Below, piece after piece: positions 2,727 to 43,768 of a stretch of DNA of 64,000 bases (positions are counted from its first letter, which is position 1; the number at the start of each line of letters is the position of its first letter). Position numbers and translations under genes: made by a program. This DNA comes from Marchantia polymorpha subsp. ruderalis (taxonomy: Eukaryota; Streptophyta; Marchantiopsida; Marchantiales; Marchantiaceae): NCBI GenBank assembly GCA_037833965.1, contig AP031351.1:12970501-13034500 (forward strand). The letters run 5' to 3'. The notes below the pieces were generated by a model. The model was not told the origin of the DNA, did not search any database, and was given only the letters and a program-made list of their open reading frames with translations.

Positions 2727-3239
2727 TTCTTCTTCTCGGTGCTGCGTCCGGCTTCCGGCCTGCCTTGCCTCCTCCGTTCTGCCCGTCCCTCCTCTGGCGC
2801 CTGCACTCGCCTTCATCAGTCGCGTTGCCTTCCGCCTTTCACTCGGATTCCCTCTCTTCTTCTCGACTCTCTCGATCTCTGACCTCTTTTCAATCTCTGC
2901 CTCTCCCCTCCGCTTCTGCTCCTCCTTCGCCTGGGCGGGACGGACTGCCGCGCTTCCTGCCCTCGTTCTCTTGCGTTCGTCGTCCATCGCTTCTGGGCCG
3001 CGAGCCCCGTCCGTGTGTTCGCAGATCTCTCGCAGGTCGGCTTCTGTCCAGGTTTGTAGCTGGCTTGTGGTGCTCGTGGTTGGATTGGGGATCTATTCGA
3101 TTCATTCCCCTGTTCTCGCTTGCGCTGTGGCAGCCTCTAAGCTGGTGTATCTGGTGGTTGTAGGAGCAAAAACTGCCAGTTCTGGTCCGTTCTAGGTTGG
3201 GATCGCCAGTCTCCTCTTTTCGGAAGTGACTTTCTCACC

Positions 3240-6200
3240 ATGTCTCTCCGCCCGAATGCCCGGACTGAGGTCCGGAAGAAAAGTTACAAGCTGGCCGTCG
3301 ATGCCGATGAAGCCCGCAGGAAGAGAGAGGACAACATGGTTGAGATCCGGAAAAACAAGCGGGAGGAGAGTTTGCTGAAGAAGAGAAGAGAGGGCATGCA
3401 GCCGCAGCAGTTTGCTTCCAGCGTTCACTCATCTGCCACTGAGAAGAAGGTGAGCTATCTGTACGGTAACGTGCCTCCAATCCTCTTTCGCCGCGGCCAG
3501 GCGAGAGCGGTTATGAAGTCGATCAGATTCTGCATATGCAAGCCCTCGGGTGCAGGGAATGCCCTGCTGCTTCATCGTCTTGTGGGATGTGTCTTGATGT
3601 CTCAAGCAGGACCTTTGACATACTGTCATGTGACAAGCCAATGGTTCTTGTTACCTTTCGCGGGAGCTAGACTAGCCTGGTGGTGCTTGGGATCTTGAAA
3701 CGAAGTCTCGATATGGATTCGCAGGAATGGACTTGTGAATGCCTGAATTTCGCACGATTCGAGATATATGTACTAACCGCGGTCGTGACTCTCTGGTTGA
3801 ATCAATCGTACATGCACATAAGTACTTGTCTTCAGTACTAAACATCCCCTTGATTCTCCAACCATTCACACGCCAGACCAAGGAGTCGCACTGAAAGTTC
3901 TGCAGAATTGATGGTTCACTGCCAGGGCGTTTAAACGTTTTTTTTTACTGTATTGTAGCAGCTGGAGAGTTTGCCAGCAATGGTCGCGGGAGTATGGTCC
4001 GAAGACGGAACCGCACAGTTAGAAGCTACCACGCACTTTCGGAAATTACTGTCAATAGGTAACTGCTGATGTCCTCTTCCATGCACGCTCTTACACCTTT
4101 CCAGATTTCCTTGCTTGTGGTGCCATGCCCAGCAGGATTGCATTTCTCAGTAGTCCCGATGCTCCCTCTAGTATGTTCACTGATGAGGTTCGTTGACCGG
4201 TCTATCTTTTGACTTTCTGAATTCATGAAATTTATATCTGCTCTGTCTACAGAGAGAAGCCCTCCTATCGAAGAAGTTATCGCTGCTGGAGTAGTGCCCC
4301 GGTTTGTGGAGTTTCTTGTGAGAAGCGACTTTCCACAACTTCAGGTGACCACGAGGCCCTTCTATCCTGTTTCCCTCCCTCTCCCGTCCTTGTGTACTCT
4401 GCACCATGCAGTTGTCAGTATTACTCCTCCGTTTGGGGCGGTTTAGTAAGAAGATAATTCACCCATGTGTGTGTAGTGAGAACGGGCAAGGATAGTGTTC
4501 CTCCTGTTTTGACGTTGCGGAAGTGGATATCAGGAGTGACACTGCTTGTCTATGGCGTAACGCAGGCAATGTCCGCCTTTTCTTAACTGGACTGAAACTG
4601 TCCAGCGGCCCTCTAGTTCACGTCGATTATTCCAGGAGTTCTGTCAGATACGATGTGATGCGCAATTTTGCTTTGCAACCCCTCGATCTCCATGCTAGGG
4701 ATTAGGGTGGTTCCCCATTTCTCTCGTTTGCAACCATTGGTCATGTTAGTTCTGAATGCGCTCGCACATCAACTAGGCTTGTGTGGAGTGCCTTGTATGC
4801 TGACTTCACTCGCTTAGCGAAAGAGTTTGATGATTTGAAGTAGTGTCATTCTCCGAGCCTGTCATCTCCGCCAGTTAATAAGGACAGATCGCACCTCTGT
4901 TGGCTTGACATAGTTACCTGTGCCAAGTTGTATTTATGATGTATTGTACTGCTTTGTCTAAGATAGTGGATTGTGTTGCTGTCGAATCCGACCTAATTTA
5001 GGTCTAGTAATTATTGTGGTTCACGAGAGACACGACAGAATTTCAAGGTTTCTCAAGAATTCTATCGGATCTATCGACTCGATCTTGTCTCGTATTGGTA
5101 TGACTAACTCTATGTGCATGGACGATTGCCGTCTCATGAGAAGAAGAATCTCTGCTGGACAGTGTGTAGGTCCCCTCATGGTTTATAAGGATCTTGTTTA
5201 ACGATGAACATGTTGCAGACAAGAATATGGACTACTAGTTGATTTGACTCTTCGCTCTCCAAACAATATATTCTCACAAGTCACCTGCCGTTTGCAGTTC
5301 GAAGCAGCTTGGGCTCTGACAAACATTGCCTCTGGAACGTCTGAGCACACTCGGGTAGTGATCGATCACGGAGCAGTACCTATATTTGTGCAGTTATTAA
5401 GTTCACCAAGTGACGACGTTCGTGAGCAGGTAAGGAATTTGTCTTCTGTGTCCAATTGGCGGTTTCCTTTCAAATCCTCGTTAACGGTGTCCCCATTCTG
5501 ACATTTTTCTTGACTTCCCACAGGCGGTGTGGGCTCTTGGGAACGTTGCGGGAGACTCTCCTCAGTGCAGAGATCTGGTTTTGAGTCACGGTGCACTCAT
5601 GCCCCTACTGAATCAGCTCACTGAAAATGCCAAGCTATCCATGCTGAGGAACGCCACATGGACGCTTTCAAACTTTTGCCGCGGCAAGCCTCAGCCTCTT
5701 TTTGAGCAGGTGAATACCTCACTGAGACGCGTATTTTCACGATCATGATTTCTTCAGAGGTTTAGCAATGCATTGTCGCCTTGCGAGCGCAGCAATTAAT
5801 CCTTCTGCTTTTTGCATGCAGTCCAAGCCGGCTCTTCCAGCACTGCAAAGACTCATCCATTCTTCGGACGAGGAAGTGCTCACAGACGCTTGCTGGGCCC
5901 TATCATACTTGTCTGATGGAACCAATGACAAAATTCAGGCCGTGATAGAGGCCGGTGTGTGCCGTCGCCTAGTTGAGCTGCTACTGTAAGTGCCTTTGAC
6001 TCTGGTACCTTTGAAGTTTTTTAATGGTCGGTTTTTTGTATATAATGTGACTGAAATTACATCGGATTCCGCAGGCATCCTTCTCCATCTGTGCTCATCC
6101 CCGCCCTGCGCACTGTTGGAAACATTGTCACTGGCGATGACCTTCAGACGCAGGTAATATGAGATAATTGTTGCTAGTTTTATTTTGTGCCTTCACTATG

Positions 6201-21510: not shown

Positions 21511-24500
21511 TTACTTATTTTGTGTCTCTTGTTGTTCGAAGCTGGCAGAGTTTCCGCTATTGACGTCCCGGAACTTTACACTCTTCTTTCGGGAAGAGCC
21601 ACAAACGATATCAGTTTGAAGATCGTGGTTAGGAGTGTCCACACTGTCATCAAACTGATGGATGGCTGTTTTTAAGGGGACCTTGCCAGAAGTTGTCCTA
21701 TTAACAAACCCAGGGGCATATCTTGAACGTTGATTCTCGGGGTGGAGGTGAAAGTCGTGTGGAGGACCTGTGATTCTCTTGCCATCTCGATACCAAACCC
21801 CATCTGCTCTTTCCTCTTCGTGACGACTACCCGCCCTTGCCCATTTAGAGGAACCGACAACAGGGAGTATTTCCGGTTTGAAACCTTTGCTGTCTCCCAT
21901 AACCGCATTGTATAGTGAATTCGAGATTTCAACAGAATCTGAAGAACGCTGGTTTCTTGAGCTTCTGTTCCTTCGTCTATATGGTCGTCCCTCGGGTGTG
22001 GAGTTTTTACTTTTCGATTTCTCCCTTTGCCAGGTCTCGAACATTTGGGCTTGATCCTCATAGCTAGTGAAGTTCAACTGGGGTCTCCCTCCGTCTTGTT
22101 CACCCGGCATGCAGGCCAGCGTTATCTGCAGTTCTACCGGACAACCCAGGGCCATCTGGAAAGCATTGCAGATTCTGGAACGGGAACGCTCGGCACGTGC
22201 TTTGTGCTCAGGATGTCGGAACTCTAAGTGGGCTACTGCAAAAGCTGCGCATCATCAAAACGCAAGACAGGTATTAGCTTCGCAGAAAGACTCCAGGGAC
22301 AAATACATTAATTCTTTTGATTGTCTCGGAGGATCGTCGTCAAGCAGCAGGTTTGTCGAGTACTGGGCTTCTCAGCAGACCATGATGGCTACGAAAATAG
22401 CCACCTTCCCTGCAGATAGTTAGCCGTGGCATTGAGAGCTCTCTGAAGGAGTCTCGTGTTAGTTAAGGCAGCTGACTGAATAACATTATTAGTTGATCCA
22501 GTCAATCAAGTTTAGAGGGCAGGTGAGTTATATAACCAACCTTCTGCCAGGAGAAGAGAGAGCAGTTTCCCTTGGCCTTGAAGCAGCTGTCTCAGCACGT
22601 TGGAGCGACTTCCCTGCAGCACTCTCTGCCACACCTCTTCTAGTTTTCGTTGACTCATGACAGTGTAGTCCTTCTGAGTGAGATCATCAATGCTGCCTGG
22701 CAACAAAGGTTCATCGGACCTGGCGTTACTTGGCCTCCCTGACCTCCTGTCTACAGGACTAGTACTCACACCGGTAATTAGCGGCGACTCTGAAGGATGG
22801 ACCTTGGCTTCGATATAACTGGGCATGGCACCACTTCTCTTCCGTGTATCGTTGAAAGAAGCTCCGTCTCTACTATTGTTGTCAGGATTGTAATGGATTT
22901 GTTCCTCACTCGTCCATGGCTGCACGGATTCTCCGACTGTCTCCTTCTCGCTTGTATCGTTCAGTTGTGCAACCGGACTTGCCAACACACTCGTCTCGAC
23001 AGAAGATGGTTGATAAGATCTGTCCGGTGCAAATTGCAGAAGAGCGGCAGTTAGCCACGTAGGCTGATCACTGGAGGTTCTCAATTGCTTCTCGGCTTCA
23101 GAAAGGATTCTCAAAGCTTGCCTCAACCTTACTGCCTCCTCTTTTTTACCTGCACGTGATCACATGAAAAACTTGCCAGATCAGTCACTCGAACACTCTT
23201 GAACATGAGTTCTATAGAACTCATAGTTCATGAGTTCTCCTTTCAAGTCCATAAATCGATTGCTGGAAGTATTGCATCGACCGAACAGAGCTCATCGGCA
23301 ACCTACCACATCGTCTAAAGAAAAAGCCGCGCATTTGCTTGTCGCGGGGAATAATGAAGCTTCCAGCTAAAATGTCGGTGATAAGAGTGGCTAGCTGAGA
23401 TACTAAAGCCAAAGGCTCAACACCCCCGTCCAAAAGATCTCGCATGCAGCGCACGGTACTAACTGCGTCTGCCGACAGCGCCAAGTCTAGGAGATCGATT
23501 AACTTGTCATCTGATACCAACCCGACCTGGAAGAAAGAATTCCAGAACAAACAGGTCACAGTCCAGGTCAGTCAGGATGAATGCGCTACTTACTTTCCGA
23601 CATTTCCAACAAAGCTCAGATTTGAGACAGGACAGCAAGATCGGCACAATACAACAGATTTGTTCCATGGATTTTGAAGGCAATCATTGCCCACAGATAC
23701 ATGGCCACCAAGAGACACGTGCGGATCTCACGATGGGCTCATTAAAATAAGAAAGGTCGTGTACACTGTCTGTTTGAGAAGAAAAACGGAGTCATCACTC
23801 ATACCATCTCCTGTACCATGGCCGGGGTAACTTGCTTTCCCAGTAAACTCAGCTGGTCCAGTGTCGTTTCAGCATCTCTGAGGGAGCCGTGAGCCTGGGC
23901 CGCTACCAAAGCTAAGGCCGCGTCGTCCACCTCCAGACCCTCCATTCGAACCAGAATTTGGAGCCTATTTACAATGTCCGCCTCCTTGATTTTGCTGAAG
24001 AGGAACTTTTGACAGCGGGACATGGCATTTCGAGGAATTTTGTCGGGGTCAGTTGTGATAAGAATGAATACAACATGCCACGGAGGTTCCTCCAAAGCCT
24101 TGAGAAAGGCATTCCACGCTTCTGGTGTGAGCAGGTGACATCCATCGATGATAAAAACTTTACACCGTGAAGTTGATGGAGTCGCAAGCATGCTGCCCAT
24201 CAGGGCCTTGACGCTCTCAATACCGTTATTGCTCGCGGCATCAATTTCCCTAATGTCCGGCGAAGGGTGCGTGCACTCTTTGCAATATCCGCATGGACGA
24301 TTCATGTGGGCTACGTCCGAAACACAGTTTAGCGCATGGGCGAAGATTCTGGCGGCCGATGTTTTCCCTGTTCCACGAGGTCCTTGGAAGAGGTATACCG
24401 GTGCGATTTTGCCTTTAAGTATGGCCGTGCTCAGTGATTTGACCACCATGCTCTGACCGACCAGTCCGCTGAATGATCTGGGTCGGTATTTTTGGTTCAA

Positions 24501-26330
24501 GCTTCTAGGTACCTCCGGCGCTGCGATAATTTGCTGCATGTGAGGTCCTTCCTCGTAAGCTGGGGACGTTGGCAATGAAAGACCACTGAGATCTTCTCTA
24601 GTGGAGCCGAAAATCAACTCCCCAGAGCGCTCGGCAGTGAGAAGTTTGCCATCAGCTCTCGGCGAGCATGGGCTGTCGTTACCGTCGAAATTACTGCGAT
24701 TATCGAGTTCCTCAGACTCCCTATCTGTGAGACCCGATCTATCGTTAAGTGGACTTTCCGCAAGAACTATAGCTCGACGGTTGATACTGCTGGAAACCTT
24801 ATCAGAGCTCTTCACGGTTTTCCTCTTCGAGCTCTCCGGAAAGCCACATGCTAAGCTCCTGCCAGCAATGTCCAGAAACCTTCTTCCTTTGTACTTGTGC
24901 ATTCTTGTCCAGTACCAAGGGATGCCACAGCCGTTTCGTGGCAGCTCCGAAACCTCCAATTCACCCTCCATACCGAATACTGAGTTATTGTCCGGGGTCA
25001 TGTTGGGGCGCAAATTCGATCTACGACCTCTCAATCTTCCCTGCGTGTTGCCTGTAACTCTCAAATTAAGCCCTTCTCGGTGTCGCGGTCCATCTCTCGA
25101 GCTGGCACCTTTGGATTTCCTCCTTCCGCCCCTCGAGTTGCGATCTGAAGTCGTCATCGAGTCTCTGTACAGGAGCGGAGATTGCGCATGGGAACTCATG
25201 TGAGACGAAGAGAGCGGCTTGAGCCCATGTCTGAGACTAATCTCATCTTCGTCGCTGTCTCCATACTCGTCTCTCTCGCTGTCAGGGCCTCCCAAGTCCA
25301 ATCCCGATATGGCTTGCTCGTGCGAGGAGTGTGCCTTATTGGAGAAAACGGGAGATGAGAGCTGAGAGCCCTGATGTCTCAACTGACTGGCGGCAGTCTC
25401 AGATATGACTCTCCTGGCGATTTCGGCTCGCCGTTCCGTTTCGTCCCAACCGCTGTCGGGCCGCCGAATGGATCCTCTCTGAAGCCTGTCATCTTCCACC
25501 ACATCCCGTTCTAGCGAGCGCACATGGCCATCGACTACCCTCTCCCCGAGGACTGCGCCTTCGAATGGTGCGGATGCATCCTTCTCCGACTGCTGCAGGT
25601 CCGACGAGCCTCTAGATCGCCGTGCTTGGGGCTTGGACGGGTCTTCCTCTTCGGACCCTCCAGCAGTTCCAAACCGGGGGTAACTCCTGGACTTGCCTAG
25701 TCTTCGCCCCTTCTTTCCTTTACTACTGCTTTTGGTCTCGCTCCCCCGAAGCTCGCCGCTGCTCGTATTGGTGTTGAGGTACGTATCCCTCATTTCATTT
25801 TTCAGAACATGATTCTCCTTCTGATCAAACCCACCCTCCAGAGCTTCGTCCCCGAAACAGTCAGCAACCCAATGATGGGTTCCACCTCTGAGATCAACCT
25901 TCTCGCGTTTGCTAGGCTTGGGGGTGGAATCGCTTTCCTGCAAATGCAGCCTTCGAGCATCTCGCCTGTAATCGCTACCTGCCAATTTGGTTTCTCGACC
26001 CTCATCTTTCATCATAGAGCTAAAATCTCGAACTTTCCTGCTACCATGAGAAGCCGAGCTCCATGCAGGACTTGTCGACGGATCCCGAAGCGAGCGGGCT
26101 CTCCTCAGAATGGTCAGCTCCTTCATGAGCGGAAGCTCGGCTGAATTGCGAGCCTCCATCAGTATCCTGTGCCTCTGCACGTGGAGCAAATTTCTGAGAT
26201 GAATATTGTTGGTCAGGTGGACGTGGCTGCGAAGATGATGCTGCGTTTGGTGTCGATGATGATAATGGACCTCTCGATTGTCTGGCGTACGGGCTGTTGA
26301 GCTGGATGCATCCCCGGAGTCTTCGTTCAT
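21511..26330 (-). CDS. STICHEL-like protein (DnaX / DNA polymerase III gamma-tau-like AAA domain), four coding exons
   Basis: This is a plant protein of the STICHEL family, large proteins with a bacterial clamp-loader (gamma/tau)-like AAA domain. In Arabidopsis, STICHEL controls trichome branching. I read coding exons 26330-23805, 23526-23307, 23149-22541 and 22244-21511, all GT-AG and in phase, giving 1362 aa (Arabidopsis STICHEL is about 1200). The start is the first ATG after an in-frame stop two codons upstream, and the family N-terminal motif LMKELTILRRARSLRDP follows at ~68. Residues ~90-600 are long, polar and Ser/Arg-rich, with basic KKGRRLGKSRSYPRFG-type stretches. The clamp-loader module starts near 620 (KYRPRSFSGLVGQ). 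It has Walker A GPRGTGKTS near 650, a zinc motif CGYCKEC, a Walker B region IIDGCHLL near 730, and the sensor/arginine-finger segment NAMSRCQKFLF. The C-terminal family region (VGLVSDDKL, LSEAEKQLRTSSDQPTWL, FRHPEHKARAERSRS) is intact. It is probably regulatory and cytoskeleton- or membrane-associated, not replicative. Confidence 0.93.
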
Positions 26331-27600
26331 TGATTAAAAATCCCAATATCGTCCCAGCAGATAATTTGATCAGACATCGAATACAAACTGGTGGCAATGG
26401 TGGCGTTGAGGTATATTACGGGTGGTACGAGAAGAGAACTCACTGTCGGTTGGGAGCAAAACAACTCTTTTCCTCGTGCAAGAAGGAAGACTGACAATTC
26501 CAGCCTGCTCGAGTGTCAACTCCAACTCCCACTCAAACCCAAACCCAGGCGCGTTCGCCATCGCCCGCCCGGAGGAAACGCCCGTCGCGAGAAGAGCTGA
26601 GGCAACACCCTCCTCTTCCTCCTCGCACATCCCCGGGGTAGACAGGTTGACTCGCGATGTTGTGACCTACTCACAGGCAGTCAGTCCAAGTCCTTTCCTT
26701 GCTCGCCACGTTCTTCATTTTCAAGCCATGAAGACAACAACCAACTCCGCCTGAGTGACAGTCTGCAGCCGGATTTGTCTCAACACTGCTTACAATGACA
26801 ATGTGATGCACACAACCGTCTTCGACTCCGTACATGTCCACCATTCGTCTTCCAGACTCTCAGCTCCTCTTTCTTGAGCTCCAGTCCCACTACATTACTA
26901 TCAGTCCAGATCCAGACGTGCAGTGACATCGAGCCCCGCTAACAGTAACCAAACATGCACGATACGGATTTTGCTCTCAAGACGACCACAACTGCTACAT
27001 CATGCGAGCACTCACCAACTCACTCTCACGCGCCCTCGGACAACCTGATAGCGCCTCTCTCTTCTCCTCCCTTCGACCGCGAATTCAAGACAGTCGTTAG
27101 TAGGGCGAGCATTCGAATCGGTCGGGCCCAGCACCAAACCTCACGTCACCCCTCCTTTATCTCCCAATTTCTTTCGCGATGACGACAACTATCAGCAGGT
27201 ACCACTTCCTTTCCTTGCCAGTACTTTCTGACTCTGACCCCGTGAGCAATATCCTCTTCACAGTTCGTGCGAATTGAGTCCGGTCGGGTCTTGTCGAGTC
27301 GAGTCGAGAGGAGTCACTGCCACTCTCTCTTTCACTCAAACCTGCTTGGCCCTCCTCTCCTCTCCTCTCGTCTCCTCCGTACTAATCCCAGCAGGAGGCG
27401 AGGCAGTGCAGTGCAGTACTCTCTCACACACTCTCACTCTCTCTCTCCCTCTCTCTATCTCTCGCTCAGAAACGATGCTCTCGTCGATGGAGGTGGGGGA
27501 TTACTAGCGACCAACCGGGTACATTATCGGGATACGAACACCTTGCGCCACTTTTATCATCAGCTCGGTCAGTGCTACAAGTAGATACTAGACTGTGAGA
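26331..27600 (-). promoter_or_regulatory. 5' leader and upstream region of the STICHEL-like gene
   Basis: The DNA upstream of the start codon is GC-richer than the flanking blocks. On the sense (minus) strand it carries a GA-rich tract at 27419-27470 about 1.1 kb upstream. Short ORFs here have no recognisable domain. A leader intron is possible but I cannot place it. The arrangement resembles the importin alpha leader. Confidence 0.4.
27419..27470 (-). repeat. GA-rich microsatellite upstream of the STICHEL-like gene
   Basis: On the plus strand it reads as interrupted TC/CTCTC repeats, so it is GAGA on the sense strand of the downstream gene. It may serve as a GAGA-type promoter or leader element. 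That role is inferred from position. Confidence 0.75.
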
Positions 27601-38053: not shown

Positions 38054-41000
38054 TCACAGTTCACTCTGCTCTGTTTCGTCGATGCAAACGAAATCACTAA
38101 TATTTGCTTCAATGCTTCCTCCCATGTAAGCCAGATTAAGGTTTCTCACCAACTGTCTGAGTTGAGAGTCAGATTTTGAAAGAGACAAACATGGCAATCT
38201 GCTGATTAGTGAGTTTATCATACAACGAGCTGTGTTCACAGTGTCAGACACTTCCGGAGCTGCCGCGTTCTTCACGGGTGCGAATTCGTCCTCTCGTCTG
38301 ACTTCCAACAGAGCAACCTGAGACACACCGGATAGACAGAAAACAAACTTGCAATGAGAACACGAGAAGAAACCGAGATCTCAGTATGGTACACCCGTCT
38401 AGAAGCAGGTGGATGCAAATTTAAAGTTTTGTACCTTGTGTAGATCACAAAACTTGAAGGAGTCAAATATGAACCGTTCCAGCTTGACTCCATTTGGTCT
38501 CTCTGGTATCACTTCTACCCATTCTTTGCCTTGCTGCTTTACATGCTTAATTTTCTTCGAGACTGGATGAAACTGGAGCTCGTTCTTCGGAAGCCCGAGC
38601 ATCTTCATCAAACTAAGAGAGAAGATATTCACGCAAATGTGGGCAGCTCGGAACTTCAGCTGCCTTCCTTCTATGGTATCTTCAGTGGCATACTTTAATG
38701 AATTGGAAATCTGACTGTACTCCAAGACACTGTAATGAGCCTTGTCAATGTAATTGACAGTGTCAGAGTACACGGAGCCCTCTTCCTCCACCATCTCATG
38801 GTTGATACACACCACCCCGACGGCTTCGTCGGGAGAAGTTTTGGTGACAACTTTGACTCCGATGTCAGCACCACGTTCGTTCGTATAACCAAAAAAGACT
38901 GGATCTGCCACTCTTACCAGGGCATTATCAACAGCATACACCTGCATGGGTCCATCAAGCAAAAAGACGATATGGCTTTAGTACTTGACGTAGACTGTCT
39001 TCACATTTACGTCATACTAATTGAGCAAATAGTCATGAACAAGTTCATGACAGCCATTTCATTTTCAAAGCCGACGTTCTGGGGGTGTACTTCTTGTTCG
39101 ATAGTTCACTACTATTCACTTGTATGCACTTTCAGCGATCTATCGATATTAACAGCACATCCTGTTGCACTCAAATCAATAGTTGCTTAACCCTTGTACA
39201 TAACAGTCTTACCTGTACATAATCCACACCCTCTTCAGCAAGTCGATCAATTATCCCTTGAGCATTTAGAGCAGTAAAAAGGCCCCCGTTTCCGCCCGGT
39301 GCCTGTGCTACTTTCCAAGGAGTCTCCAAAAGAATGCGATGGCGGTCCTCAATCATATCAAGATCAATGCATGGCATACTGTCTTGCTTGACGAACCAGA
39401 CCTGTTCCGGCAAACTTTACAACAGTCAATAACCGGATTATGTTAAGACTCACGAGGCAACTTCTTATATCAAGGGCAAGTCGGTCAGCACTCAAGCGAA
39501 AGGGAAATAAGAAGTAAAAGAAGGATAGACCTGAGCACTGTCGAGGCCAAAGAATTCGTTGTCCTCGAAGTATGCCTGGGTGTACTCGTCCGTGGCATCA
39601 CTTGTCATCACAATCCATGGAATACAAGGCCTTGATTCAGAACCTGTTACCTGTAAAGAAACATCTTAAGTTAGTACAACAGAAGACCCTTCATCCGCTA
39701 ATAACCAACGTCTTCAGGCGGATGTGAGTAAGGTCAAAGATGCTCAATTTCAAGAGGAAAGTACCAGTTTGGCCAATTCTTGTACAATGAGCAATCGTTC
39801 TGCCTGCAGCTGAAATAAGGACTTCCCGCTTACAAGACCTAAGTCAATTGACCCCTTTACAGTTGAAGCATTATCACCCAGTCTTGTGCTCTGCCCTCCT
39901 GCGAGTACCACCACAGCAACTCTCCCATCAGCTATGAGCTGTAGCCCGTCTGTCCACCATCTACATACATCGCCGTTCTCCGTTGAACTTTCCTCTTGAT
40001 CAAGCCAGGTGTGAAGCTCTTGCCAGTTTGCACATGGAAAAGCGGAAGGTGGCTCTCGACGCGAATCATGTCCTTGCTGCCTGCATTCACGAAGACGAGT
40101 TGATATACATAATGCATAATGGAATGTTCGAACCAATACGGTCTTACATTCTGAGGCAAAAAGTTGGCAACACAGAGAGTGAAACTTATCAACTTGCTCC
40201 ATCTGATGTTACAATATGTATGAAGAGCCCACAGCAAAATAAGGGATGAACTCGAATCAAGTATGTCGAGAGGGGACATGGAAAAGCAGAAACTTGCAAG
40301 TGATTCTTCTATCAAGACGTGAGAAAAAAGGACCCGGCAGCCTGTGTGGCAACTATGATCATATATGAACACGAAACGGGGATATGCTTCATGCAAGGAA
40401 CACCACGCATCCATCAAGGGAAGAATAACAGAACAGTTATGATACAACAAAGACAAACACCTCTATATGATTTCCTCAGCGCACGTCACGCTGGTGTCAA
40501 AGTGATGGAAAATAGAGTATCTCTCGTCACCAGTTTCCTAATTACTCATAATCTGCCATACTTATCAGCTTTCTAAGCTTCTTCCTAATCCTGCGCCTCC
40601 CTTCCCAATCAATCATCCTTAACAATCAGGTTACCATACCGATAAAGAAGCAAAAGAGGAGGAACGGAACGGTGCAGTAGATTCTATTCAGATTGCACAG
40701 AGGCACGAACCTAAACCATCAACAACGTTTCAACTCCTTACAGCACATCTCGCTTGTAGAGTGGCATAAATAAAACGAACTGCACTCAAGCTACAAAAAG
40801 CATCCAATTGAATCCCCGTTGGATGCATGTTACAACAAATTTTTTTGTCCTAAATTAACCAGACACGAATGAAGCTTCAAACAGCAGTCAAGAATCTCAC
40901 CTTGGACTCAAGTCCGGCAAGGGAAGAACGTCTTGTAGTGCACGCTGGAAGGAAGCAAAGTCTATACTTAGTAGCTGGTTGACCAAATCTTGTTGTTGAG

Positions 41001-43768
41001 ATTCGGTACCAGACAGCAGCCCCTCGAGGATGTGTGTTTGCCCAATAGCTGTCAACCTTTTCTTCAAGCCTGCAAACCTCTCTCGAACTTTCCTTTTCTC
41101 CTTGAGCTCCTGCAGGGACAGTAACTTTTAACTGCGATTCAAGAACGTAGTTCACCCAAACGTACAGAAAAGAGTATGGACACAATTAACCATAGCTGGA
41201 GAAATCGACAGGACTTCCACTGCTTTAAATGACCGGTTTGATCGACGGCCAACGTAAGTTTTGAGAGTTATCAGCATATCGCAAATGTCATTGTAACTAC
41301 ACCTGGACTTTACTTCGACCTTGTTTCTTGACACGGAAAAGGAACAGAGGTCACAGCAGAGCAGATATTGATGCCAGGTCGTACGAAACTATCTTACTAA
41401 GAAGCAGAAATAACATGACGCCGCAGACCACTAAAGAAGTCGCTCTGGTACGTCATATATATAGGACAGTAATAGACGGTTCCTATTGAAACCTGCGACG
41501 CGATCACGGGAAAGTCTCCTGCAACATTCAGCTCTTCGGAATATGGGTAACAGCTTTTGAACTTGCATTAAAAAACCATAAAAAACGAGGCACATGGAGT
41601 ACTACATTTATATTCCTGATGCAGACAAAGTGTACTATCACGTCTCCATAAAAAAGGCTATCGCCATCTGCCGAAAGAAGTTGATATAAGAATAAGCTTA
41701 AAACGGATGAGAAGTGAAACTAGAATAAGAGAAGATAAGAGTTACGGTCCACTTTACCTGCTTACGTTTAACTTTCTCATCTTTGCTTTCACCGGGAGAA
41801 TTGAGCTCAAGAAGGCCAGCGGGTGGGTTAATTTCGACCCGCCTTCCGTCCTTGTCAACAATCGGTACGATCTCCTTGACAAATGGTATCCAGATTTTTT
41901 GGCTAGAAGATCCGTCAGTTCGTTTCACTTGCAAGAGGTCAGTATCACCACCAGTGTTGTAGACATCCACTATTACACCGATTTCTTGACCGCTTTCCTG
42001 TGCAATGATGCGTTTTAATTATGCAAAGATTGAACAATAGACTTTGAAAATAAAGCAAAAGAATTCCGAACTTTGCAGGGGAACACAGACGATACTGATG
42101 CAACAAGAATCAAACAATGGAACACGATAAAGTTAAGTACAAACTCACGACATAAGCAGGTTGAACCTGATATACCTGAAGAATGACAGCCATTCCTACA
42201 AGATCAGGTATATAGAACTCGTCGTCACTCAAAGAAGGTCGTTCTGTCACAACCAGGGTTGATCCAACGAGATCACTGGCCTGCATGACTTAAAAGGTTA
42301 CTTCTCCATGAGAAGTTGTATTGAAAGAGAAAGACCCTTGAACCTAATATCAAGCCTTGAACTCTTTTCCATTGAGAACAGAACAATAAACCACTACTCA
42401 GAAGAGAAAATAAAGAGATGTGCATATAAAATTGGCAGTCTGGTTTCACGACCAGACGAGAAAACGTAAGAATCAAACAGGGCAATCCACATGAATGAGC
42501 CACACAACATGTTAAAACAGCTGTACCTTCTCAATCGAGTTGAAGCCCTTTAGTTTGATGAGCCACGAAGGACGTTTCCCTCCTACTTCCCTCCCTTGCA
42601 GGAGCTCCACCTCGTGATACACATGCTTACCCATGGCTTTAGAACGCACCCACCGTTTACCTGGCTGAATTTCCAACGCTATTCGATTGTCAAGCTTAGT
42701 CTACTCCTCGCCATCATGTAAACGCTAAATCGAACTACTTCTCCTTTGTGACCAAGAGGTTCACGACATTCATGATTCTCAGCGGGTGTAAACAGTAACT
42801 AAGTAGCTTACGAACAATATGCGAATGATATGAATCGTCAATATAACAGTCACATAGAACTGAAGCTTCCGAAACTGTGAAACAACACATATCAGTGTGG
42901 GGTTGATGACAGTCACCGTCTCAAAACGTTCCTCTGGGAAGTCCGTAAGAGAATAAACGTGAAGTTCCCCATGCACTCCATGTGTGTCGGCAATGTATCC
43001 CACTTCCACAAAGTCACCGGAGTCTCTGACTTCCGTTTCCAAGATAGGACTCGCGAAAGAGCTGATTACTGCAACCATGGCGCCATGAACGAATTCTCAA
43101 CACACTCTCGAGTGAGCCAGAGACTGATGGCACGAATGTCGGGTTCTATAATTCGAGATGTAAATGAGGGCGCTTCAAAATTCCTCAGTGTTGGAACGTA
43201 ATGATGTATCACTTCCAAGTTGTATTGAATTGATGTGAAGACAATAATCAATAATGCGAGCTTTGGATACCTCTTCTCTGAAAAGCCGGAGAGGGCTTGC
43301 TTCTGACATTCAAGCGAGAAACTAGCCTTGAAAACACGAACTTCTCCACAAGTAACCTGTACGACTTCACCAAAATAGGACAAGATGCAAAATCATATTG
43401 TCAGTGAGGCAGAAAATTTCGTTATCAGGGACATGTGATAGAATTCACTTCCCAACCAAGATCGTCCGTGGAAAACAAATCTCTAAAAAATCGAAGGAGA
43501 AGCTCGTCGGGTTATTCGCCAAACCTCCGACCGAGCAGCGTCCTTGACAAAACGTGTCGCGAATTCCATTCCCAGCACGGATTTACGAGCTCGAGCCACG
43601 ACGAGGCCATACCTGAGAGTGAGAGAGCACTAGAGCTGGGGAGGAAGCGGATGCAGCGTGGAGGCAACCAATTCGCATGGCGTAAGCGTGCCCCCGGCTT
43701 CCTGCGAACACAAATTCTTGCAGTGGCCCGGGCACACGAGCACATGTGCTCCGCAAGGCCATGGCCAT
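38054..43768 (-). CDS. RimM-like 16S rRNA maturation factor fused to a UDP-sugar pyrophosphorylase-like domain, probably plastid-targeted; 12 exons
   Basis: I read 12 coding exons, all GT-AG and in phase: 43768-43613, 43356-43271, 43061-42917, 42664-42527, 42280-42176, 41997-41758, 41109-40901, 40080-39765, 39650-39531, 39401-39213, 38941-38435 and 38317-38054; 824 aa. Residues 1 to ~90 are basic, Ala/Ser-rich and poor in acidic residues (MAMALRSTCARVPGP), like a chloroplast transit peptide. Residues ~95-205 are the RimM N-domain (FVEVGYIADTHGVHGELHV, FPEERFE, WLIKLKGF). Residues ~205-275 are the PRC-barrel part (YIPDLVGMAV, VDVYNTGGDTDLLQV, IWIPFVKEIVP). A charged helical linker follows (ELKEKRKVRERFAGLKKRL). 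From ~400 the protein resembles AGX-type UDP-GlcNAc/GalNAc pyrophosphorylase: VVVLAGGQSTRLG (~415-428), QAPGGNGGLFTAL, VYAVDNALVRVADPVFFGY, PNGVKLERFIFDSFKFC and EVRREDEFAPVKN. RimM assists small-subunit assembly. The transferase half may bind a nucleotide sugar; activity is uncertain. As I recall, Arabidopsis has one such fusion. Confidence 0.92.

Follow-up and report, generated by a model that had tools for sequence, protein, structure and literature searches.

A RimM gene of Marchantia polymorpha extended by a UAP/AGX-type domain with an altered nucleotide loop

Why should a plant join a ribosome-maturation factor to a nucleotide-sugar enzyme domain within one polypeptide? The question is raised by a gene on contig AP031351.1 of the liverwort Marchantia polymorpha subsp. 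ruderalis (assembly GCA_037833965.1), within a stretch of 64,000 nucleotides (forward-strand positions 12,970,501 to 13,034,500; hereafter the window) to whose first letter all coordinates given here refer. The gene lies on the minus strand and runs from an ATG at 43768 to a TGA ending at 38054; its 12 exons (Table 1) encode 829 amino acids (aa), with GT-AG borders at all 11 introns, no internal stop and the frame kept at every junction, so that the original prediction of an intact 12-exon frame proves exact in its limits. Genes that fuse RimM to a UDPGP-type domain are already known in plants, and a search of the open-licence PubMed Central (PMC) literature found no paper joining RimM with UDP-sugar pyrophosphorylase activity. 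What marks this copy is a substrate pocket that is largely kept together with a phosphate loop that has been rebuilt.

The protein is divided by Pfam into RimM (residues 106-193), PRC_RimM (206-277) and UDPGP (418-760) domains. Its RimM half is complete: the equivalog model TIGR02273 scores 116.4 bits against a cut-off of 66.2 and is covered from position 2 to position 166 of 166, after which the frame continues, without a stop, into a charged linker. The gene is also the sole match found to the RimM N-terminal domain in the source genome (241 Mb in 9 contigs; one match out of two scored candidates). That the model merges what are really two genes or two transcripts is very improbable. The two longest of the 11 introns, intron 6 (648 bp) and intron 7 (820 bp), would suit such a division, and the model is drawn from DNA alone; yet every junction is in frame, the reading passes from a complete RimM into the linker with no stop, and there is no methionine from residue 210 to residue 485, a span that includes the nucleotide loop at 425. 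The model therefore offers the second half no separate start, its first in-frame methionine lying beyond the loop, and a separate second gene would require an unseen first exon. The claim of a single gene with a RimM domain thus holds.

The N-terminus is less secure. Codon statistics trained on a neighbouring open exon of 844 aa prefer the model frame in 10 of the 12 exons, namely 3 to 12, while in exons 1 and 2 they give it no support and place another frame slightly ahead. The N-terminal extension of about 100 aa is, by eye, rich in Ser and Arg; we infer that it resembles a transit peptide rather than read this off the model, because the frame of exons 1 and 2 is left unconfirmed and one alternative splice is possible between exons 2 and 3.

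The second half had been described as UDP-sugar pyrophosphorylase-like, a description of which the UDPGP fold survives and the family does not. Among matches to solved structures in the PDB, the top 11 of 15 are UDP-N-acetylglucosamine (UDP-GlcNAc) pyrophosphorylases (UAP), the best at 3e-79. Two chains named MbUSP, which we take to be UDP-sugar pyrophosphorylase (USP), match far more weakly (1.5e-15 and 1.6e-15), and uridine triphosphate (UTP)-glucose-1-phosphate uridylyltransferases match at 5e-5 and weaker. USP and the second half both belong to the UDPGP superfamily (PF01704), but the difference between 1.5e-15 and 3e-79 rules out USP as the closest family, and on sequence similarity the second half is of UAP/AGX type, the closest solved family of this fold.

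Relatives of this domain also exist in bacteria. A genome scan returned 529 stretches that fit a motif pattern, of which 429 encode relatives, and the best 80 of these 429 form the bacterial set used throughout. The scan patterns were taken from LFQ[IL]QAER and IPW..MT, so the set is biased to genes holding one of them; neither motif contains the two positions, G113 and P121 in AGX1 numbering, that matter most below. Two scans of a viral collection gave no confirmed relative. In a tree of 75 rows, from which 8 bacterial sequences were left out by length along with mouse UAP, and in which human and Aspergillus fumigatus UAP stand for the eukaryotes with no plant UAP, the fusion domain groups with the two eukaryotic proteins at a support of 100/96. 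Its end branch measures 1.46, against 0.75 and 0.72 for those two, and is flagged as long by the tree program. Forcing the fusion into the planctomycete group is rejected (p-AU 0.0156), with the qualification that this group was picked after the tree had been seen and that a long branch is involved. Given both its place in the tree and the rejected planctomycete placement, a prokaryotic origin is disfavoured, and the second domain looks like a copy of a eukaryotic UAP more than a bacterial acquisition. As a separate observation on the same tree, which was rooted at its midpoint and so carries no direction, the eukaryotic UAPs cluster with UAP-like proteins of planctomycetes and lentisphaeres (100/97), apart from those of Bacillota and Fibrobacterota.

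It is in the nucleotide-binding signature that the fusion parts from its relatives. AGX1 reads LAGGQGTRLGVAYPKG where the fusion reads LAGGQSTRLGDNASTVKG: the GGQGTRLG of UAP has become GGQSTRLG, and PKG has become VKG following two extra residues, leaving six residues from the last signature Gly to the Lys compared with four in all 79 other sequences that cover the loop. The signature GGxGTRLG...PKG is thus absent, and the altered QSTRLG and VKG of the original prediction are confirmed against 83 other UAPs, as is its statement that the Lys, GGNGG and VDN are retained. Among those 83 others (80 bacterial and 3 eukaryotic rows, 4 of the bacterial ones without the loop region), 32 columns with at least 85% coverage are invariant, and 30 of them are retained in the fusion. 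Both of the lost columns fall in the phosphate loop, one at AGX1 G113, which is Ser429 in the fusion, and the other at P121, a column that aligns with Ser437, while the residue right before the Lys is Val439. The altered loop is not a splicing artefact, because it lies inside exon 8 at a distance from the splice sites.

How far these changes speak to catalysis is a separate matter. Work by Mio in 1998 reportedly found a severe loss of activity when the yeast counterparts of G113 and P121 were changed to alanine. The argument that a changed signature means a dead enzyme was nevertheless dropped, since the cytidylyltransferase KdsB of E. coli has Ser before TRL (ASTRLPGK), at a place judged equivalent by eye; a change from Gly to Ser alone is therefore no proof of lost catalysis.

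The remainder of the pocket is better preserved. A published study of A. fumigatus UAP1 (AfUAP1) lists ten contacts for UTP and six for N-acetylglucosamine-1-phosphate (GlcNAc-1P), and reports that mutations of K148, Y330 and K437 raised Km or abolished activity (PMC8386105). By alignment, 13 of the 16 contacts are identical in the fusion (8/10 for UTP, 5/6 for GlcNAc-1P), and the three mutagenised residues are all retained, as K440, Y648 and K758, the last of these corresponding to the catalytic lysine K437. R115, K122, D253, E303, K377 and K407 (AGX1 numbers) are likewise kept. The changed contacts are G139S, C277A and N355H. Position 277 is variable among the bacterial homologues, and the GlcNAc-1P contact Asn355, equivalent to AGX1 N327, is His674 in the fusion, with His also found in 17 of the 80 bacterial sequences. 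In AGX1 numbering, the departures that the original prediction had not listed are those at N327 (now His), C251 (Ala), D221 (Gly) and E306 (Gln), together with a 19-residue extra loop after VGVVC and a C-terminal tail without EISPL, a motif present in four bacterial tails that were inspected (as EISPH in one of them).

Taken together, these comparisons do not describe a simply eroded pseudoenzyme, because 30 of 32 invariant columns and 13 of 16 contacts are kept, including the three mutagenised residues. A related explanation is that of a purely structural pseudoenzyme that has lost nucleotide binding and would serve as a contact platform for protein or RNA on the plastid pre-30S particle. It would account for the long branch, the changed phosphate loop, the substitutions at C251, N327 and E306, the extra loop and the divergent tail, yet we consider it rather unlikely, as the ligand contacts and invariant columns have been kept far above a scaffold's need. 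The interpretation first offered for the locus stands in its account of one gene, a complete RimM and an altered loop, whereas any use of the Gly to Ser change as a sign of lost catalysis is weakened both by KdsB and by the 13 retained contacts.

Had the domain simply died, its lysines should have gone; had it stayed a plain enzyme, its signature should have been kept. The fusion fits neither plainly, and a binding domain with altered catalysis is the best reading. We tentatively favour, with somewhat less than even confidence, a module for binding UTP or a UDP-sugar, joined to plastid RimM, which it would regulate in a nucleotide- or nucleotide-sugar-responsive way. Under this hypothesis a plant nuclear gene would encode a plastid-type RimM, an assembly factor of the 30S head, followed by a fast-evolving C-terminal copy of eukaryotic UAP/AGX. 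The protein would be targeted to the plastid, in line with the plastid context of the Arabidopsis RimM-family protein. Its UAP-like domain would probably still bind UTP or a UDP-sugar, its catalysis being weaker or altered, and would no longer be an ordinary UDP-GlcNAc synthase. RimM would dock on the 30S head, with the UAP-like domain acting as its responsive regulatory module. It is tempting to speculate further that the gene encodes a metabolite-gated assembly factor, in which the triphosphate loop was rebuilt and catalysis given up while UTP/UDP-sugar binding was kept, such that 30S maturation driven by RimM tracks the nucleotide-sugar (carbon/energy) state of the plastid; we regard this stronger version as improbable.

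Several points weigh against the regulatory reading. Nine of the 32 invariant columns lie within the loop stretch, so by our arithmetic both losses would fall there by chance about 7% of the time, and of 27 further columns that are nearly invariant, 7 have changed as well, all of them beyond the loop; the concentration of lost columns in the loop is accordingly suggestive rather than proven. With its lysines and EY pair kept, the second domain could still be an enzyme. The last step of the mechanism, in which RimM on the immature plastid 30S would be modulated by a bound ligand or by the mere presence of the folded domain, is purely conjectural. Coupling of the UAP-like domain to 30S assembly is nonetheless plausible.

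The main competitor to a regulatory module is a working plastid nucleotidyltransferase with a changed substrate, making a UDP-sugar in the plastid, for which fusion to RimM would be incidental or would merely ensure co-localisation. Such an enzyme would be in keeping with the six retained AGX1 residues listed above, with the Ser before TRL of KdsB and with the bacterial His at N327, and in bryophytes its product could be UDP-GlcNAc for plastid MurA. Published work bears on this supply. Moss builds up peptidoglycan precursors beginning with UDP-GlcNAc, and murA and murF mutants of M. polymorpha have fewer, larger chloroplasts, which their authors take as a role for chloroplast peptidoglycan. 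In the liverwort paper MurA is presented with UDP-GlcNAc and phosphoenolpyruvate, and the moss and spruce papers on plastid peptidoglycan take UDP-GlcNAc as given, the words GlmU, pyrophosphorylase and uridylyltransferase being absent from their main texts. Against a working enzyme, none of the 79 other sequences that span G113 and P121 departs from either residue, and N327, which contacts GlcNAc-1P, has been replaced by His. A role in MurA supply sits poorly with the existence of a RimM-family counterpart in Arabidopsis, since a 2025 paper reports the full Mur set from no angiosperm. We judge a working enzyme unlikely on balance, though a serious contender.

Sequence alone does not choose among a binding module, an enzyme of changed specificity and a scaffold. 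In either of the first two cases the consequences would be considerable: a second domain that binds a nucleotide sugar would connect plastid metabolism directly, at the molecular level, with the assembly of ribosomes, and a catalytic one would be a candidate supplier of UDP-sugar within the plastid, filling a gap in the supply for plastid peptidoglycan.

The same fusion was sought among bacteria. At the 80 bacterial loci, with flanks of up to 4 kb, no RimM profile match was found next to a UAP-like gene at E <= 10, using a profile built from the fusion and two PDB RimM chains that recovered the E. coli rimM control at 1.3e-70; this control is near kin of the profile members, and a divergent RimM might escape. 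At 76 of the 80 loci the open frame of the UAP-like gene does not exceed 501 aa, too short for UAP plus RimM, and at the other four it is 987 aa long. Within these flanks and the reach of the profile, then, a bacterial RimM-UAP fusion was not seen at any of the 80 loci. The four 987-aa frames (L053, L067, L069 and L070; three from Clostridia contigs and the fourth from a contig labelled Tenericutes) begin with a UAP-like enzyme, and in L053 and L069 the remainder is phosphoglucomutase-like by eye (TASHNPPQYNGYK), suggesting a bifunctional sugar-nucleotide gene. Also within the bacterial set, variation at the GlcNAc-site positions N223 and N327 (AGX1) follows phylum in part, with Asn at both in all 8 Fibrobacterota and His at 223 in all 11 Planctomycetota, suggesting that the bacterial enzymes have several sugar specificities.

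Elsewhere in the window, large open exons lie on the minus strand at 21511-26333, among them the one of 844 aa already mentioned, which contains clamp-loader domains of DnaX type (Pfam DNA_pol3_delta2 and DNAX_ATPase_lid) and presumably resembles the plant STICHEL family. On the plus strand, an exon at 3141-3698 encodes an importin-beta-binding domain and probably opens an importin-alpha gene; upstream of it, 2577-2727 holds simple repeats of GAGA and CTG.

Table 1. Exons of the RimM-UAP fusion gene, in order of transcription, with positions in the window
Exon	Content	Position	Strand	Basis
1	ATG and N-terminal extension (a putative transit peptide)	43613..43768	-	Gene model; frame unconfirmed by codon statistics
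2	N-terminal extension, splice choice uncertain	43271..43364	-	Gene model with one alternative; codon statistics ambiguous
3	RimM N-terminal domain begins	42917..43068	-	Gene model, Pfam, codon statistics
4	RimM N-terminal domain	42527..42664	-	Gene model, Pfam
5	RimM N-terminal domain ends, PRC barrel begins; EFYIPDL vs E. coli DYYWKDL	42176..42280	-	Gene model, Pfam
6	RimM PRC barrel to end of RimM model (VEINPPAGLLEL), then charged linker	41758..41997	-	Gene model, Pfam, TIGR02273
7	Linker and N-terminal helical part of UAP-like domain (GQTHIL)	40901..41109	-	Gene model, PDB matches
8	Nucleotide-binding loop, altered signature (AGGQSTRLGDNASTVKG, aa 425-441)	39765..40080	-	Gene model, column conservation, contact mapping
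9	UAP-like core (IPWIVMTSD)	39531..39650	-	Gene model, PDB matches
10	UAP-like core, sugar/uridine-site motif APGGNGG	39213..39401	-	Gene model, contact mapping
11	UAP-like core with VDN, EYSQ, RAAH, RPNGVKLERF and 19-residue extra loop	38435..38941	-	Gene model, contact mapping
12	Catalytic-lysine motif FAPVKNA, divergent C-terminal tail, stop TGA	38054..38317	-	Gene model, contact mapping

Compared with known systems, the fusion shares with bacterial RimM (E. coli RimM, TIGR02273) an entire N-terminal domain and PRC barrel, with an aromatic pair FY in place of the YY of E. coli, and differs from it in adding the N-terminal extension and the UAP-type domain. To human AGX1 and A. fumigatus UAP1 it is 40% identical across about 420 residues; unlike these eukaryotic UAPs, it carries its copy behind RimM, with a different loop, residue at N327 and C-terminal tail. 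In Arabidopsis, the protein of AT5G46420 presumably also carries a UDPGP-type C-terminal half, going by public domain annotation. AT5G46420 and maize GRMZM2G165694 are listed as RimM-family factors of plastid rRNA processing and assembly, with function cited from prokaryotes (PMC4046486), and the Arabidopsis protein is reported from the stroma (PMC4138088). A further study describes its over-accumulation in clpc1, a mutant of a chloroplast protease, where two batches gave 4.7 and 2.3 times the wild-type level, and a level near that of wild type in the complemented clpc1 line (PMC6136230). The Marchantia fusion is likewise of the RimM family, as in the AT5G46420 type, and it is for the Marchantia gene only that RimM and a UDPGP-type domain are documented here in one protein.

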